Part shown: positions 3,401-28,828 of the stretch, in pieces | Numbering within the stretch: position 1 is the first letter of the stretch | How the letters are laid out: every line of letters begins with the position of its first letter | DNA from: Pseudomonadota bacterium | GTDB lineage: Bacteria; Pseudomonadota; Gammaproteobacteria; Xanthomonadales; Rhodanobacteraceae | Assembly: GCA_021795435.1 (NCBI GenBank) | Contig: JAJYPJ010000004.1 | Coordinates: 1-64,000, forward strand | Direction: 5' to 3' | Length of the DNA: 64,000 bases | Position numbers and translations under genes: made by a program | Notes under the pieces: model-generated | Databases searched by the model: none | What the model saw: the letters and a program-made list of their open reading frames with translations, nothing else | What the model was told of the DNA's origin: nothing

Positions 3401-5074
3401 GACCTGGTGGTCCGCTCGATGGGCGAGGCCGTGGCAGTCCACGATGCGCAGATGCGCTTCGTGGCCGTCAACCCGGCCTTTACCCGCATGACGGGGTATG
3501 CCGAGCACGAAATCATCGGCAGGTCAGCCGGGCTGCTCGACAGCCAGGATCAACCCGAGGCCAGCCAGCACGTCCGCGCCCAGCTCGATGCCAGCGGCCA
3601 CTTTCGGGGCGAGTTGTGGCAGCGCAAGCGCGATGGCGAACCGGTGTTGTGTCGCATCGAAATCAACGAGATCCGGGACAGCCACGGGGAGCGGACGCAT
3701 TTCGTGGCCGTACTCAGCGATGTGACGGCTCGCCGCCGGGCGGAGCAGGAACTGCACTATCTCGCCAACTATGACCCGCTCACGGGCTTGCCCAATCGGA
3801 CCCTGCTCACCGAGCGCCTGGGCGACGCGATCCTGCGCGCACGCCAGACCGGGCGCCTGGTCGCGACGCTGTTCGTGGACCTGGATCGCTTCAAGCATGT
3901 CAATGACGCGCATGGCCACAGCGTGGGCGACCGGGTGCTGCAAGCGGCGGCACGGCGCCTGCGCGCCGTCGTCCGCGACGATGACACCGTCGCGCGACTG
4001 GGCGGCGATGAATTCACGATCGTTCTGGAACGGGTGGCCCGGACCGCCGATGCGGAAGACGTCGCCCGCAAGATCCTGGAGATCTTCGGCGAGACGATGG
4101 ACCTCGGCGACGGTCGGGAGGCCCAGATCACGCCGTCGATCGGAATCGCCCTGTACCCGAACCACGGACAGGTGCCCACCGACCTACTCAAGTACGCGGA
4201 CATCGCCATGTATCGCGCCAAGGAACGGGGGCGCAACACTTACTCGGTCTATACGGAGGCGCTGGACGCCGAGGTGCGCCAGCGGGCCGATCTGATCGCC
4301 GCGTTGCAGCGAGCCCTCAAGCGCGAGGAAATGCATCTCGTCTACCAGCCCAAGCTGAGCCTTCTGGAGGACCGCATCACCGGCGTCGAGGCCCTGCTGC
4401 GCTGGCAAAGCGAAGAGTTTGGCGAAATTCCCCCCAGCCTGTTCATTCCCCTCGCCGAGGAGATCGGCCTGATCGGCGCGCTCGGCGAGTTCGTCATCGA
4501 GCGCGCATGCGGCGAACTGGCGGAATGGCGGGAATCGGGGCTGGACAACGTGACCATGGCGGTCAATGTCTCCGTGGCGCAACTAGGCCGCGGTGACTTC
4601 AGCAGCTACCTGTTCGAGACGCTCGAGCGCCACCGTCTGCCACCGCAGATTCTCGAGCTTGAACTCACCGAAAGCATGCTGATGCAGGACCCCGAACGAT
4701 CGCGGGCGATCCTCGAGACCATCAACAACGTCGGGGTGACGCTGGCCATCGATGACTTCGGCACGGGCTACTCCTCGCTTGCATACCTTCAGCGGCTGCC
4801 GCTGGACACACTGAAAATCGACCAGACGTTCGTGGCCAAGCTCACGCTGAGCCCCGATGACGAAACCATCCTTGGCACCATCGTCCTGATGGCCCATGCG
4901 TTGGGCCTGAACGTCGTGGCCGAGGGGGTCGAGTCGCAAGACCAGGTCGAATATCTGCGCGAAAAGGACTGCGACGAAATCCAGGGCTATCACTTCGCGC
5001 AACCCATGCCGGGACCCGATTGCTTCCGGTTCATTCACCAGCACCGCGCGCGGCGCAGCACCGCGCGCGCGTGA
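485..5074 (+). CDS. Two-component-regulator-type propeller + Y_Y_Y + TM + PAS/PAC + GGDEF + EAL protein (c-di-GMP turnover)
   Basis: Signal peptide MPALFSRVVQSLALLLGLAMLVPAPRGNAQA; reg_prop repeats (LWITAMPGGLYRYDG, VWIAAESGGLIRLD); YRYRLRGLDKAW Y_Y_Y domain; ARLGGDEF with RDDD I-site; EALLRW, DDFGTGYSSL, EGVES. Confidence 0.92.
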   Translation: MPALFSRVVQSLALLLGLAMLVPAPRGNAQASLPTRHPVDVAHYYFKHIGIHDGIQPSSMASIYQDNHGFLWITAMPGGLYRYDGQRVIPFPEVEGPHGQTLVAIGDVTGAGNGRLWLSIDGARGQNIGSGLRLVDSTGHLLPVPAGIRAPGEGASLLRVAGNGLLMAGPEGISLWQGGPARLRVLWRAPADADGTHALVACGSGIAYALAAGSLWRVDLRAPSAAALALPGATALSTGQALLCTHAGHLLVGTNRGLFELGPAGWTKRWPTSSVAGVNALAEDASGAVWIAAESGGLIRLDRAGQAETLPARHGTAGDLPPGVVRQLLVTRNNTLWALIGWDGLLYTDPMGTRFQSVSVPDSRDPADNANYVRALAPAGGSKVWVGSHAGLMRYDPRTRLLSDYTPLLLPTLAGAHVRPAGSAMPAPGQVAVEGIVRDPGTGVLWLATDAARLLRFNPATGRARFAYRADPGNPAPGQWLFTVWRAPDGTLWIAGATRGAARWRPGMNAPQWMPAPPGMRRFPHVFGFAAGAHGGVWMPGNGGLIHWRHGQLQLIRHQPGHRDTLASDSALSVARTADGSLWVGTVEGVDRLAGNTAGPPRFVHYGVHQGLPDNIIYCMVEQPRGMLWIGTNLGVSALDIATGRIVRYGESAGIRGLESNAGTCTRLDNGAIAFGGPEGFVIGAATREQPPVPTTVHLSAVRLGNGGPRPAPLDGLLDAMQGETVRISFSGLDFLHPGATLYRYRLRGLDKAWSKVSASDEVMYRGLASGHYVFEVASSWPDGRLASPPANLAIVIVPPWWDSPALRSIYALLVGGVVLLLTGMAWGRRRSERTYRRESAAREERLKLALWGSGDALWELDLQRGLLHRMGSENLLGGPREDVMTLDDWRRYAVHPDDLPALETALGEHLSGNTPYYESEHRLRAGDGQWIWVRARGKVSDMDAHGRPLRVIGTSRDISAELTREREHSIADLVVRSMGEAVAVHDAQMRFVAVNPAFTRMTGYAEHEIIGRSAGLLDSQDQPEASQHVRAQLDASGHFRGELWQRKRDGEPVLCRIEINEIRDSHGERTHFVAVLSDVTARRRAEQELHYLANYDPLTGLPNRTLLTERLGDAILRARQTGRLVATLFVDLDRFKHVNDAHGHSVGDRVLQAAARRLRAVVRDDDTVARLGGDEFTIVLERVARTADAEDVARKILEIFGETMDLGDGREAQITPSIGIALYPNHGQVPTDLLKYADIAMYRAKERGRNTYSVYTEALDAEVRQRADLIAALQRALKREEMHLVYQPKLSLLEDRITGVEALLRWQSEEFGEIPPSLFIPLAEEIGLIGALGEFVIERACGELAEWRESGLDNVTMAVNVSVAQLGRGDFSSYLFETLERHRLPPQILELELTESMLMQDPERSRAILETINNVGVTLAIDDFGTGYSSLAYLQRLPLDTLKIDQTFVAKLTLSPDDETILGTIVLMAHALGLNVVAEGVESQDQVEYLREKDCDEIQGYHFAQPMPGPDCFRFIHQHRARRSTARA

Positions 5075-22289: not shown

Positions 22290-24182
22290 TCAGTAGAGCA
22301 CGCGGAAACGCAGCGTATGGGGAACCGCTTTGATGGCGTCCAGGAGCGCCGGCGAATAATCGCGGTCGACATCGGTGATGACGTAGCCCACGTCGCCGTC
22401 GGTCTTGAGGTACTGGCCCAGGATGTTGGCGCCGTGCGCACTCAACGCTTCGTTGATGCGCGCCAGGACTCCGGGCTGATTCAAGTGCAAATGGACCAGG
22501 CGATGGGCCCGCTCCTGGGGGGGAAGCCGTAGCGCGGGCACGTTGACGGCACCTTCCGTGCTGCCCGTGTCCAGATAGTCGATCAGACGCTGGGCAACAT
22601 AGCGCCCGATGTCCTCCTGCGCCTCCAGGGTGCTGCCGCCGATGTGGGGCGTCAGCAGGAGGCGCGGATTCTCGCGCAGCGGGTGGCGGAAGGGATCGCC
22701 GTTGCGCGCGGGCTCCTCGGGGAACACATCGAGCGCCGCTCCGCGGAGATGTCCGGAATCCAGCGCTTCCTCCAACGCGTCGAGGTCGACCACGTGCCCT
22801 CGCGACAGGTTCAGCAGCACGCTGCCCTTGCGCATCGCGGCGAATTCCGCCGCTCCAAACAGGTTCCGGTTCTCGGCACGGCCATCGACGTGCAGGCTCA
22901 CGGCGTCGCACGCGGAGAGCAGCTCATGCAACCCGGGGACGCGTCGGGCCGTGCCCAGGGCCAGCCGCTCGGCGAGGTCGAAATAGAGCACGCGCATCCC
23001 GGCCGCTTCCGCCAGAACCGACAATTGCATGCCGATGTTGCCGTAGCCAACGATGCCCAGCGTCTTGCCGCGCACCTCCCGCGCCGGCCCGACCGATTTG
23101 TCCCAGATGCCGCGGTCCATCTGCCGCAATTTCTCGGGCAATCCGCGCAGCAGCAGGATGATTTCGGCGAGCGCGAGCTCGACCACCGAGCGCGTGTTGC
23201 TGTAGGGCGCGTTGAACACGGCGATCCCGCGCGAACGCGCGGCAGCAAGATCGATCTGGTTCGTGCCGATGCAGAATGCGCCAATGGCGACCAAACGCCT
23301 GGCTTGCCCAAGCACCTTGCCTGTCAGCCGGGTCTTCGAGCGGATGCCGAGAACCGCGATGTCCGCGAGGCGAGCGGCCAGTTGTTCCTCGTCCAATGCG
23401 CCGGCCTCGGTCTCCACGGTGTAGCCGGCGCGGGTGAATGCCTCGACCGCACAGGGATGGATGTTCTCGAGCAGCAGGACCTTGAGCTTGCTCTTCGGGT
23501 AGGAATGGATGCCGCGCAATCCCAGGTCGTGGAGCACCTCATCGAAGCTCGCCGCCTGCCTCTCCGAGCGGGCGAGGACGCTTTCCCGCCGCACGTGTTC
23601 CGTGTAGGCGTAAAAGCGCTCGACCAAGCCGGCGTTCGCAACCTCCCAGTCACTCCAGCCATCCCCGACGAGCACGCGCGGGGCCGGGAAGCCAAGGCTG
23701 CGCAACAGCGCGACCTTGCCGCCCGCGCTGGCCAGGGGATTGTGTTCGTCGTAGCCCAGCGAACGACCGTCTTCATCGAAAAGCAATCGATTCGCGTGCA
23801 CGTTTTCCGCACGCAGGCCCAGGGACTCGATCACCGGGACGATCAATTCGACGAAGCCCGACGAGAGCACGTGGATGCGCGCCGCATGCTCCTTCAGAAA
23901 CGCGCGGTTGGCACGGAAGGATGGGCTGACGGCCGCCATCAGCCGGGCGACCACATCGGGCAGCTGGTCTCGGCGGATGTCCAACAGGGACATGCGCGCG
24001 CGCAGTGCGTCGCCAAAATCCATTCGGCCTTCCATGCCGGCAGCCGTCAGTTCGGCAATGCGTCGACGCTTCGCCCCGCCGGCGTCGTCATTGGGCAGAC
24101 AGACCTCGGCCATGACCTCGAGCGATTCCGCGCCTACGAGGGTACTGTCGAAATCCAGCAGAAACGTCTGCGGCACGGGCAT
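22290..24182 (-). CDS. Fused HAD phosphatase (SerB-like) / D-3-phosphoglycerate dehydrogenase (SerA, C-terminal ACT)
   Basis: N-terminus FLLDFDSTLVGAESLEVMAEV...VHVLSSGFVE-type...RVLVGDGWSDWEVANAG (HAD-IB); C-terminus GIVGYGNIGMQLSVLAEAAGM, LLNLSRGHVVD, LTPHIGGSTLEAQEDIG, then ACT-like tail, one uninterrupted frame. Confidence 0.9.
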   Translation of the reverse strand: MPVPQTFLLDFDSTLVGAESLEVMAEVCLPNDDAGGAKRRRIAELTAAGMEGRMDFGDALRARMSLLDIRRDQLPDVVARLMAAVSPSFRANRAFLKEHAARIHVLSSGFVELIVPVIESLGLRAENVHANRLLFDEDGRSLGYDEHNPLASAGGKVALLRSLGFPAPRVLVGDGWSDWEVANAGLVERFYAYTEHVRRESVLARSERQAASFDEVLHDLGLRGIHSYPKSKLKVLLLENIHPCAVEAFTRAGYTVETEAGALDEEQLAARLADIAVLGIRSKTRLTGKVLGQARRLVAIGAFCIGTNQIDLAAARSRGIAVFNAPYSNTRSVVELALAEIILLLRGLPEKLRQMDRGIWDKSVGPAREVRGKTLGIVGYGNIGMQLSVLAEAAGMRVLYFDLAERLALGTARRVPGLHELLSACDAVSLHVDGRAENRNLFGAAEFAAMRKGSVLLNLSRGHVVDLDALEEALDSGHLRGAALDVFPEEPARNGDPFRHPLRENPRLLLTPHIGGSTLEAQEDIGRYVAQRLIDYLDTGSTEGAVNVPALRLPPQERAHRLVHLHLNQPGVLARINEALSAHGANILGQYLKTDGDVGYVITDVDRDYSPALLDAIKAVPHTLRFRVLY

Positions 24183-24320
24183 GCTCACCTCCAGAGGACC
24201 GAGCCTACCCGAAGCATTGGCGCAATGCAGCATCCGCCGAAAGGGCGAGCGGGCGAACCGTGGTTAGGAAGCGTCACGTCCCGCGACGGCGGCCAGCGCG
24301 CGGAGCGATGGGCTTGGTCT

Positions 24321-24358: not shown

Positions 24359-25219
24359 TCAGGCCGCGAAGCTGGCTCGCATCTTTTTCAGGGCAGCCGA
24401 TTCGATCTGGCGAATGCGCTCGGCGGAAACGCCATACTCATCGGCCAGGTCCTGCAGCGTGACCTTGCTGTCCGCGTCCAGCCAGCGCCGACGGATGATG
24501 TCCTGGGCGCGCGCATCCAGCCGGCCCAGCGCATGCTGAAGACTGTCCAGGTCCCGGCCTTCCTGGTCGGCCTCGGCGAGCGTGCGATAGGGGTCCGCGC
24601 CATGGTCCTCGAGGTACAACGCGGGCGCGGGCGGTGCGTCGTCATCCGCGTCCGCCGGCGCATCGAAGGCGACGTCGTAGTTGTTCATGCGCGCCTCCAT
24701 TTCCAGGACGGTCGCTTCCGGAACGCCAAGGTCCTTCGCAACGACGCGCACTTCCTCCGCATTCAGCCAGCCGAGGCGTTTCTTACTCTTGCGCAGGTTG
24801 AAGAACAGCTTGCGCTGGGCTTTGGTGGTCGCCACCTTGACGATGCGCCAGTTGCGCAGGATGTACTCATGCATTTCGGCACGGATCCAGTGCACGGCAA
24901 AGCTCACCAGTCGAACCCCCATGTCGGGATCGAAGCGCTTGACCGCCTTCATCAAGCCAATGTTGCCTTCCTGGATCAGGTCGCCCAAAGGCAAGCCGTA
25001 CCCCGAATAGCCCCGGGCGACATGGACGACGAAGCGCAAGTGCGCCACGACCAACGCCTTCGCGGCCTCCAGATCCCCCCGCTCGCGGTAATCGCGGGCG
25101 AGCACCTGCTCGTCCTCGCTGCTGAGCATGGGGATGCGGTGCACTGCGCCAATGTAGGCATCGAGGCTGCCCACTGGGCTGGGCAGATTCCACGAGCGTG
25201 CCGCCAGAGCTTGGTTCAT
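24359..25219 (-). CDS. rpoH: RNA polymerase sigma-32 factor
   Basis: [90 protein letters not shown]. Confidence 0.97.
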
Positions 25220-25245
25220 GGGTGAACTCCTCGTTTGAGGCAATG

Positions 25246-25272
25246 CTAGCACTCTCGAACAATGAGTGCTAA
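25246..25272. promoter_or_regulatory. CIRCE element (HrcA operator) upstream of rpoH
   Basis: ctagcactc-tcgaacaat-gagtgctaa; on the minus strand TTAGCACTC-N9-GAGTGCTAG, 26 nt from the rpoH start. Confidence 0.9.
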
Positions 25273-25569
25273 TGCCGTGGGTCAGGCGCTCCCCGCCTAT
25301 AACTGAACTACATGGTACACGATACTGCCTGAAGGCCAGATGACGGCATGCCGCGGTCCTTGGTCGCGCCGTTATGCCGCCGCGACCGGTCCGGGCACCA
25401 TGCACCCTGATTGGCCGGGCCGGCGGGAACGGCGTCCCCTCGCCGGGGCGCTCAGCGCCTCCACCCCCGAGCGGCCCCGGACACGGGCACCCCCACTTCG
25501 CCGCCGAAGCCCGGGGCGGCCGCCCCGATCCATCCGCGGGCGTTCGCCCCGCCGGGCGGGGGTCGTGCC

Positions 25570-26268
25570 TCAGCAGTCCAGCTGCGCGCGCGGTGGCAAG
25601 GACCAATCCATGGCCGCCTCGCCGCGCCCGGCAAGCCAGGCGTTGCAGGCGGAAAAGTGGCCACAGCCCAAAAAGCCCCGGTGCGCCGACAGGGGGGACG
25701 GATGCGGGGCCTTCAGCAACAAGTGACGGCGTCCGTCGACCCACGCTCCCTTGGCCTGGGCATGGCTGCCCCAAAGCATGAAGACCAACCCTTCCCTGCG
25801 TTCGTTCAGCAATTGGATGATGCGGTCGGTGAATCCTTCCCACCCCCTACCCTGATGCGACCCGGCGCGCCCTGCCTCCACGGTCAACACGGCATTCAGG
25901 AGCAGCACGCCGCGTCGGGCCCATGGCAGCAGACAGCCATGATCCGGTGGCGGAAACCCCAGGTCGCGCTTCCGCTCCGCGAAGATGTTGGCCAGTGACG
26001 GCGGGATCGGCACGCCCGGACGAACCGAGAAGCACAACCCATGCGCCTGGCCGGGACCATGATAGGGATCCTGCCCGAGGATCACGACGCGCACCCGCAT
26101 GAAGGGCGTCTGGTCGAGCGCGGCGAAAATCTCATGACCCGGCGGATAGATCACCTTGCCTGCCGCCTTCTCGGCATGAAGAAACGCCGACAAGGCGCGC
26201 ATGTCGGGGCGCTCGAACCAATCAGCCAGCTCGGCCTTCCAACTGGCTTCCAGCCGCAGCCCAGCCAT
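25570..26268 (-). CDS. ung: Uracil-DNA glycosylase
   Basis: [59 protein letters not shown]. Confidence 0.97.
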
Positions 26269-26269
26269 C

Positions 26270-27115
26270 TCAGGCCTGCCCACCCTCGCGTTCACGCACA
26301 TGCTGCGCGAGGCGCAGCTGGAAGAGCAGCTTGGTCACGAGCAAGCGCTCCTCGATGGGCTTCTGGACCAGGTCATTGGCACCGGCCTTCAACAACGCCG
26401 CCTGGTTGCGGGGATTGTCGTCGCCAGTCATGACGAGAATCGGCAAGCGGCTCTTGCCATAGCCGAAATCGCCGCGGATCCGGGCGATCAAGTCGGCGCC
26501 CGAGAGCACGCCCTTGAGGTTCACATCGGTCAGAACGACCTCGGCGCCGACATGACCCTGCGCGCGAGCCGCCTCCAGAAGGGCCAGCGCGTCCTCGGCG
26601 CTGATCGAATGCAAGACCGTCAAACCGCACTTTTCCAGCATTCGCCGGGTCGCGAGCGCAACCACGCGGCTGTCCTCGACGTAAAGGACCGTCCCACTCG
26701 CCTGTTGCTGCGGCCGTACGTAGCCGCTGATGAAGCTTGCCAGCGCCGGGAATCCCAGCGACTTGTCGAAGTAGTCGGTCACGTCATCGCCCAGCTGCCG
26801 CGCGTGCAGGCGCTCGGTGACATCGCCGGAAACCACCACGATTGGCATGTACGCCTGCCGCGCCTGTTGCCTCAGCACCTTCGCCAGATCGATCCCGTCC
26901 ATGTCCGGGAGGCGCAGGGCCGTGGTCACGAAATCCACGGGCGCTTCCAGCAGGGCGGCGATCGCCTCAGCACCACTGCCGCAGGAGACGACCGCGACGC
27001 CGGGAATCTCCTTGAGCAGCAATTGCTCGATCATCCGGCGGACGACGCGCGACCCGTCGACGACCATCACGCGGGGTGAAACTGCAGGGAGGTGACTGGC
27101 GATATCGCCGTTCAT
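26270..27115 (-). CDS. Double-receiver (REC-REC) response regulator without output domain; first REC degenerate
   Basis: REC1: [10 protein letters not shown]...[26 protein letters not shown]2: [10 protein letters not shown]...[17 protein letters not shown]...[26 protein letters not shown]. Confidence 0.85.
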
Positions 27116-27126
27116 GCATGCCTCGA

Positions 27127-28080
27127 TCAGCCAGGCTCGCTTACCGCGAGATGACGCGCGCTGGCCAACCGCGCGCCCAGCCAGCCCAGCATAGCGGCCG
27201 CCAGCACCATCACCAACAGCGGCCTCGGATCGAGCGTCGCGAGGCCAAGGCGCCCCCCCCACACTGCGTCCAGGCGGGCAGCAGGGCCCGCCAGCGCAGC
27301 CTCCAGCGCCAGCGTCACGCCGATCGCCACGAGTCCGCTGAGCAGGCCGAGCCACAAACCTGCATACAGGTAGGGACGCCGCACGAAGGACGCGCCGGCA
27401 CCGACCAACTGCAGGACTTCGATCTCCTGCGCACGACCCTGGATGTCGTTACGCACGCTCGCGCCAACCACCAGCATCGCCGCAAGCGCCAGCAAGGCCG
27501 CCAGCGTCAGCATCAACCGGCCGCCGAAGGCTCTCAGTGCGGCCAACCGATCACGGAAGGGTCCCTGGTCCTGGACCTGGGCCACGCGCGCATCGGCGCG
27601 CAAGCGCGCCACCAATCGCCGGACATTGGCGGTCCCGGCGCTTGCCCTCGGTTCGACGACCAGGACCCAAGGCAAAGGGTTCTCGGGCATCGCCGCGATC
27701 GCCGGCCCAAATCCCTGCAGTGATGCCAGTTCGGCCAAACCCTGCTGCGGCGACTTCACGACGACGGCGGCCACGACCGGCTCCGCCCGCAGGCCCTGCG
27801 CCAGCAACGTCGCCATGGCGGGCGTCGCGCTGGCATCGAGGAAGACATTGATCGACTGCCCTTCGCCCAGCACCTGGCCAAAATGCGCCAGGTTGACCAG
27901 CACGAGATAAAAGCTGAGCGGCAGCGCCAGGGCCAATCCCATCACCGCGACCGTCAGCAGCGTCCCCAGCGGATGCTCGCGCAACCGCGCGAGGCTCTGC
28001 CCGAGCGCCCATCGGTGCGCTCGCCACCAACGCGCGACCGCCGCCCCCGGCTGCACGCGTTTTCCTTCCGTCGCGCTCAT
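27127..28080 (-). CDS. ftsX: Cell division protein FtsX
   Basis: Four-TM permease following ftsE; FLDASATPAMATLLAQGL, AEEIEVLQLVGAGASFVRRPYLYAG-type motifs. Confidence 0.94.
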   Translation of the reverse strand: MSATEGKRVQPGAAVARWWRAHRWALGQSLARLREHPLGTLLTVAVMGLALALPLSFYLVLVNLAHFGQVLGEGQSINVFLDASATPAMATLLAQGLRAEPVVAAVVVKSPQQGLAELASLQGFGPAIAAMPENPLPWVLVVEPRASAGTANVRRLVARLRADARVAQVQDQGPFRDRLAALRAFGGRLMLTLAALLALAAMLVVGASVRNDIQGRAQEIEVLQLVGAGASFVRRPYLYAGLWLGLLSGLVAIGVTLALEAALAGPAARLDAVWGGRLGLATLDPRPLLVMVLAAAMLGWLGARLASARHLAVSEPG

Positions 28081-28757
28081 GCCGCGACTTCGCCCGCGGG
28101 CACGTCATCGACCAGCCGGCCGTGGTCCAGCACGAGGACCCGCTTGCGGATGCGCTTGATGAGGAGCAGGTCGTGCGTCGCGACCACCACGGTGGTGCCG
28201 ATCGCCTGGAACTCCGCGAACAACTGCATGATCTCCACGGCCAATTGCGGATCGAGGTTGCCCGTGGGCTCATCCGCCAGCAGCACGGGAGGGCGCGCGA
28301 CGATGGCGCGGGCGATGCCGACGCGCTGCTGCTCGCCCGTCGACAGTCTCGATGGCAATCGCTGTTCCATGCCGCCCAGGCCGACCTTGTCGAGCGCGGC
28401 ACGCGCGCGTCTGGCCCGCTCCGGTCCAGGCACGCCAGCGACGACCAGCGGCAATTCCACATTGGCTTGCACGGTGCGGTCCAGCAGAACGCGGTGGTCC
28501 TGGAACACCATGCCCACCGCGCGCCGGTGCCGGGCAATGGCCTGACCCCGCGTTTGCCGCAGGTTGCGTCCCGCCACCATGACTGCGCCGCTGCTGGGAC
28601 GTTCCAGCAAGCCGATCAACTTCAGCAACGTGCTTTTGCCGGCGCCCGAATGGCCGGTGACGAAGGCCATTTCGGCGGCTTCCAGCGCGAAGCTGACCCC
28701 CTCAAGCGCGGCACCGCCTGCCGGGTAGCGTTTGCTGACTTGTTCGAATCGGATCAC
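28077..28757 (-). CDS. ftsE: Cell division ATP-binding protein FtsE
   Basis: GHSGAGKSTLLKLIGLLERPSSG, RLSTGEQQRVGIARAIV, LLADEPTGNLD; GTG start. Confidence 0.95.
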   Translation of the reverse strand: MIRFEQVSKRYPAGGAALEGVSFALEAAEMAFVTGHSGAGKSTLLKLIGLLERPSSGAVMVAGRNLRQTRGQAIARHRRAVGMVFQDHRVLLDRTVQANVELPLVVAGVPGPERARRARAALDKVGLGGMEQRLPSRLSTGEQQRVGIARAIVARPPVLLADEPTGNLDPQLAVEIMQLFAEFQAIGTTVVVATHDLLLIKRIRKRVLVLDHGRLVDDVPAGEVAA

Positions 28758-28828
28758 GATGCCGTTCCGGTGCGCTCCGCAGAGCATACGGCATCGCATG
28801 CAACCGCCGACGCCACCGACGCCACCAT

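Follow-up and report, generated by a model that had tools for sequence, protein, structure and literature searches.

In Bacillus subtilis, the repressor HrcA is kept active by GroEL, and folding stress titrates GroEL. The usual textbook account of sigma-32 comes from Escherichia coli, in which control acts at the translational and post-translational levels; the promoter P3 of E. coli rpoH is dependent on sigma-E. The sigma-32 and CIRCE sites of related genomes were reportedly the subject of a survey by Permina and Gelfand (2003), in which rpoH may figure among the CIRCE targets. The presence of a CIRCE, TTAGCACTC-N9-GAGTGCTAA, upstream of rpoH (at -51) was reported in 2004 in Geobacter sulfurreducens, where groESL and hrcA-grpE-dnaKJ also have a CIRCE (PMC545781). 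The open literature gave us nothing beyond PMC545781 on an rpoH-associated CIRCE in beta or gamma genera, with the reservation that the survey of 2003 may list some sites, and no description was found of the three-way overlap at rpoH presented below or of its spread. Since the G. sulfurreducens site is on record, the coupling of HrcA to rpoH is not new in kind, and the layout is widespread and already partly recorded.

The window analysed here is a stretch of 64,000 nucleotides (64 kb) of DNA from a member of the Rhodanobacteraceae. As in G. sulfurreducens, a CIRCE is found both upstream of rpoH and at groESL (PMC545781). G. sulfurreducens is however a Deltaproteobacterium, PMC545781 lists the site only, with neither a superimposed -10 nor a sigma-E promoter, and the one Geobacteraceae locus that we have seen (L030) is devoid of TAnnnT after the CIRCE. 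The operator, the repressor family and the target groESL are shared with the HrcA/CIRCE systems of the B. subtilis type (groESL, hrcA-grpE-dnaK). Contrary to these systems, the window has a heat-shock sigma factor as the target, its operator overlies the predicted promoter core and hrcA-grpE-dnaK is devoid of a CIRCE in this genome. Most relatives possess, like E. coli P3, a predicted sigma-E promoter (GGAACTT-16 nt-TCnnA) directly before rpoH. E. coli has no CIRCE at rpoH, in agreement with the sequence-only reading, and a control search detected no hrcA in it, whereas in the window the CIRCE is present and the sigma-E -35 has been lost.

On the minus strand, positions 25272 to 25246 of the window read TTAGCACTC-ATTGTTCGA-GAGTGCTAG. 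In comparison with the inverted repeat TTAGCACTC-N9-GAGTGCTAA that characterizes CIRCE and the HrcA regulon, 17 of the 18 arm bases are identical and the spacer has the expected 9 nucleotides. The element had been described as a perfect CIRCE, which is slightly overstated because its final base is G and not the A of the consensus; 8 of the 9 arm pairs are complementary. The spacer length and the distance of 26 nt from the downstream edge of the element to the ATG of rpoH (25219) are both as claimed. This CIRCE is the sole match with at most three mismatches in the 64 kb, while 100 shuffles of the window contained none (0 expected by chance). The identification of the downstream gene as rpoH is confirmed by the NCBIfam equivalog TIGR02392, well above its cut-off, and by the Pfam sigma-70 regions 2 and 4. 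As the gene ung, upstream of the CIRCE, points the same way as rpoH, the element is assigned to rpoH. The coordinates of all these features are given in the table.

The gene order ftsE-ftsX-response regulator-ung-rpoH (24359-28799, minus strand) corresponds to the E. coli ftsEX-rpoH neighbourhood with two intervening genes. Next to it on the same strand, a single ORF (22293-24185) contains a HAD phosphatase domain (SerB-like) and a D-3-phosphoglycerate dehydrogenase with an ACT domain (SerA-like), a fusion by which one polypeptide would apparently carry out both the first and the last step of serine synthesis.

Features of the rpoH upstream region, with positions in the window
Feature	Position	Strand	Basis
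rpoH, sigma-32 (286 aa)	24359..25219	-	TIGR02392, 402.1 bits (cut-off 323.1); Pfam sigma-70 r2 and r4
Shine-Dalgarno-like AGGAG of rpoH	25227..25231	-	sequence
Inferred transcription start region	25235..25238	-	6-9 nt (about 7) past the -10; leader of approximately 16-19 nt
Predicted extended -10, TGC-TAGCAT, first six bases shared with the CIRCE right arm	25243..25251	-	conservation of T at base 30; kept in relatives without hrcA
CIRCE operator, predicted HrcA site, TTAGCACTC-N9-GAGTGCTAG	25246..25272	-	17/18 to consensus, 0 in shuffles; kept in relatives with hrcA, absent in those without
Place of the sigma-E -35 (GGAACTT) of relatives, here CGCCTGA	25282..25288	-	best match nearby in the window 4/7

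The whole genome (2.28 Mb, approximately 90% complete) was searched for CIRCE with at most three mismatches. HrcA, proposed as the regulator by the sequence-only reading, is encoded by one gene located upstream of grpE-dnaK (PF01628, 190 bits). Exactly two CIRCE sites were detected, at rpoH with one mismatch and, as the only further site, at groESL with two mismatches (C41:49495-49521, 44 nt before groES). The canonical target groESL thus carries the element in the same genome, and the rpoH site is the better of the two copies. The usual locations of CIRCE had been given as groESL and hrcA-grpE-dnaK; no CIRCE within three mismatches precedes hrcA-grpE-dnaK in this genome. In most family members, hrcA is immediately preceded by a conserved CTTGCAA, accompanied by a CCTTAT-like -10 (L005, approximately 3588-3660; L306-L325). 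This motif is only suggestive of a sigma-32 promoter, because the promoter scores at hrcA in single genomes are not above those of shuffles.

In the order, 121 genomes were searched for CIRCE, RpoH and HrcA, and 80 rpoH upstream regions were compared, to which the window was added. The repeat is conserved in relatives in strict association with hrcA: a CIRCE precedes rpoH in 56/56 genomes with hrcA (window counted) and in 0/25 genomes without it, both counts being uncorrected for phylogeny. The scores of the sites in the first group are of 13 to 18 bases out of 18, and the best chance score in the upstream regions of the second group is 12. The joint absence of hrcA and CIRCE includes several separate co-losses. 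Genomes devoid of both are found in families otherwise endowed with hrcA (G013, G011 and G021, G026, G062), and G013 even shares its genus with the hrcA-containing G023, G040 and G068; the absence of hrcA is less sure in G062, whose genome is only 87% complete.

Some variants of the element were observed in the order. Two loci (L181 and L174, from G016 and G034) have a spacer of 8 nt instead of 9 with otherwise perfect arms. The families f2 and f4 contain the form TTAGCAGTC-N9-GACTGCTAA, in which base 7 is changed symmetrically from C to G, together with mixed forms, and some groESL sites of genomes with this variant at rpoH retain canonical arms. The arm positions 7 and 21 are non-complementary in about a third of the 54 rpoH sites of the order.

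The analysis was extended to 274 genomes of the class Gammaproteobacteria in the broad sense (betas included) with a strict pattern combining CIRCE and RpoH. This pattern matched 124 of the 274 genomes, distributed in 103 of 222 genera, and the reversed-pattern controls gave no match in the class. The gene hrcA was detected in 199 of the 274 genomes, and the strict pattern in 114 of these 199 versus 10 of the 75 genomes without hrcA (Fisher p ~2e-11, relatedness being ignored). The association seen in the order is therefore weaker but still strong in the class. Among 40 sampled genomes with hrcA that were negative for the strict pattern, 31 do have a CIRCE at rpoH, in most cases too far upstream to be captured by the pattern. 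From this non-random sample, it can be roughly estimated that 90% of the hrcA-containing genomes of the class have an rpoH CIRCE and that about one in ten seems devoid of it. Conversely, a CIRCE-like site is retained at rpoH in the hrcA-lacking genomes G194, G321, G247, G213 and G254. In two of them (L268 and L269, from G321 and G194), it is the shifted palindrome TGTGCACTC-N9-GAGTGTTAA, perhaps the site of a different regulator or of one that escaped detection.

A regulator other than HrcA could in principle use the palindrome throughout, as these few apparently complete genomes without hrcA might suggest, but this explanation is very improbable given the distribution in the order, the presence of the same motif at groESL and the fact that 8 of the 10 exceptions to the strict pattern in the class come from genomes less than 90% complete.

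A scan of GTDB genome contigs recovered at least 119 contigs with an rpoH CIRCE, and the matches listed include Nitrosomonas, Methylocaldum, Pseudoalteromonas, Rheinheimera, Dyella, Aromatoleum, Rubrivivax, Fontimonas and a Geobacteraceae MAG. Elsewhere in the phylum, outside the class, the strict pattern was found in none of approximately 212 genomes, which does not prove absence because the pattern may not suit the alphaproteobacterial RpoH. Two MAG contigs with a proteobacterial-type CIRCE-rpoH arrangement are labelled Verrucomicrobia (L013) and Chitinophaga (L034), and they are probably misbinned or mislabelled.

An alignment of 167 rpoH CIRCE sites was realized (80 among the GTDB matches listed, 54 from the order and 33 from the class sample). 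TGC occupies the operator bases 22-24 in nearly all sites, and base 30, three past the CIRCE, is T in 158/167 rpoH sites versus 0/18 groESL sites. The right arm and the three bases that follow it read TGC-TAnnnT, an extended -10 pattern strongly conserved family-wide. On the other side of the operator, GGAACTT (at least 6 of 7 bases) is present in 111/167 rpoH sites, mostly at -16 or -17 from the CIRCE, compared with 2-3% of shuffled flanks and 1/18 groESL sites. The bases TC..A are found at operator bases 8-9 and spacer base 12 in 122/167 rpoH sites, and the left arm with the spacer is thus predicted to contain in most relatives a sigma-E -10 (TCnnA), at the canonical 16-nt spacing from GGAACTT. 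The composite GGAACTT-N16-TCnnA was detected at rpoH in 40/56 genomes of the order with hrcA and in 16/25 without it (shuffles, 10/1410); in some families without hrcA the match is farther upstream and may represent a different promoter. At groESL, the operator instead overlaps a TAGAAT-like -10 only by its first base or bases, where this -10 ends, and the fusion of operator and promoter is therefore a property of rpoH and not of CIRCE in general. At rpoH, the CIRCE appears to be superimposed on a predicted promoter core and not merely located upstream of it.

The genomes that have lost hrcA, aligned with their hrcA-containing relatives, reveal which bases persist. GGAACTT and TGCTAAGAT or TGCTAAAAT are invariant, whereas the operator shows a destroyed left arm or a spacer extended to 10 nt: G011 and G021 have kept GGAACTT and TGCTAAAAT with the left arm gone, and G013 combines an intact GGAACTT and TGACTGCTAAGAT with an altered left arm and a spacer that now has 10 bases. 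These alignments suggest that the arms decay after the loss of hrcA while both predicted promoters survive, the retained bases being those with a presumed promoter role. In six loci of family f2, probably Xanthomonadaceae (L159, L162, L154, L166, L155 and L148), only some 6-9 nt separate the end of the -10 fused to the CIRCE from the rpoH ATG, and a Shine-Dalgarno is lacking; the rpoH mRNA should consequently be leaderless.

The promoter of the window itself departs from that of most relatives. Its -10 is weak, with 4 of 6 bases of TATAAT in TAGCAT in addition to the TG. A two-hexamer sigma-70 scan of positions 25200-25600, uninformative for extended -10 promoters, found no promoter, and no -35 was found. 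RpoE is encoded in the genome, and no GGAACTT-N16-TCnnA composite is present within 400 nt of the window's rpoH. The sigma-E part of this copy thus seems degenerate through the loss of its -35, and the part composed of the HrcA operator and the extended -10 remains.

Such degeneration, with the weak -10 and the changed CIRCE base, could mean that HrcA binds but contributes little, rpoH being transcribed in this genome mainly from an upstream promoter and the CIRCE being a relic or having only a weak modulating effect. This explanation is unlikely; the rpoH CIRCE is a better match than the genome's only other copy, and it is strongly conserved in relatives.

Still less probable is a function of the palindrome in the mRNA, as a hairpin of the rpoH leader acting as a thermosensor or a stability element. 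The arms do fold as RNA into a 9-pair stem, E. coli rpoH is known to be controlled by mRNA structure, and CIRCE in transcribed leaders alters mRNA stability in some bacteria. However, the conserved -10 overlaps the right arm, and the transcripts made from it would begin past the CIRCE; with a start about 7 nt beyond the -10, the element would be outside the mRNA, which argues against an RNA role, and sigma-E transcripts would begin inside it. The element stops 26 nt short of the ATG, and its stem leaves the ribosome site uncovered. The folding of the 93-nt leader does not surpass that of shuffled sequences (z -0.87), and the leader without the CIRCE folds like random sequence. Positions 7 and 21 are often unpaired in relatives, as expected of a protein site and not of an RNA stem, and the element tracks the presence of hrcA. 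The hairpin is disfavoured on these grounds.

We therefore retain, with a probability of roughly 0.8, that the rpoH CIRCE is a genuine HrcA operator at which HrcA, by covering the core of the promoter, would repress the transcription of rpoH. The proposal of the sequence-only reading that HrcA represses rpoH and so couples the two heat-shock circuits is well supported by comparative data, in the order as in the class. Since the site is common to most HrcA-bearing relatives and gone when HrcA is lost, the HrcA heat-shock system very probably controls the sigma-32 system. We infer from the sequences HrcA binding, repression and the start site, and by analogy with the B. subtilis model the dependence on GroEL. 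According to this model, free GroEL would keep HrcA active, and HrcA on the rpoH CIRCE would block RNA polymerase because the right arm doubles as the extended -10 (TGC-TAnnnT). When unfolded proteins occupy GroEL, HrcA would lose its activity and groESL and rpoH would be derepressed together. In most relatives, HrcA would gate at one site both the housekeeping and the envelope-stress inputs to sigma-32 synthesis; in the window's genome, HrcA and the extended -10 only would operate. The possible sigma-32 promoter at hrcA, for which the evidence is weak, would close a negative loop.

Concerning the origin of this arrangement, we lean slightly towards an ancestral rpoH promoter of the Gammaproteobacteria (betas included) that was a three-input switch within approximately 50 bp, where the HrcA operator doubled as an extended sigma-70 -10 and as a sigma-E -10, and where the status of GroEL gated basal and envelope-stress synthesis of sigma-32. 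The lineages that lost HrcA, such as E. coli, would have kept the promoters without the operator, P3 being a remnant.

Most of the sampled Gammaproteobacteria with hrcA seem to place the synthesis of sigma-32 under a repressor that senses GroEL. The sole other predicted target of HrcA in the genome of the window is groESL, as is probably also the case in many relatives. The exact overlap of operator and promoter gives clear predictions, for which the lineages that have lost hrcA represent natural controls.
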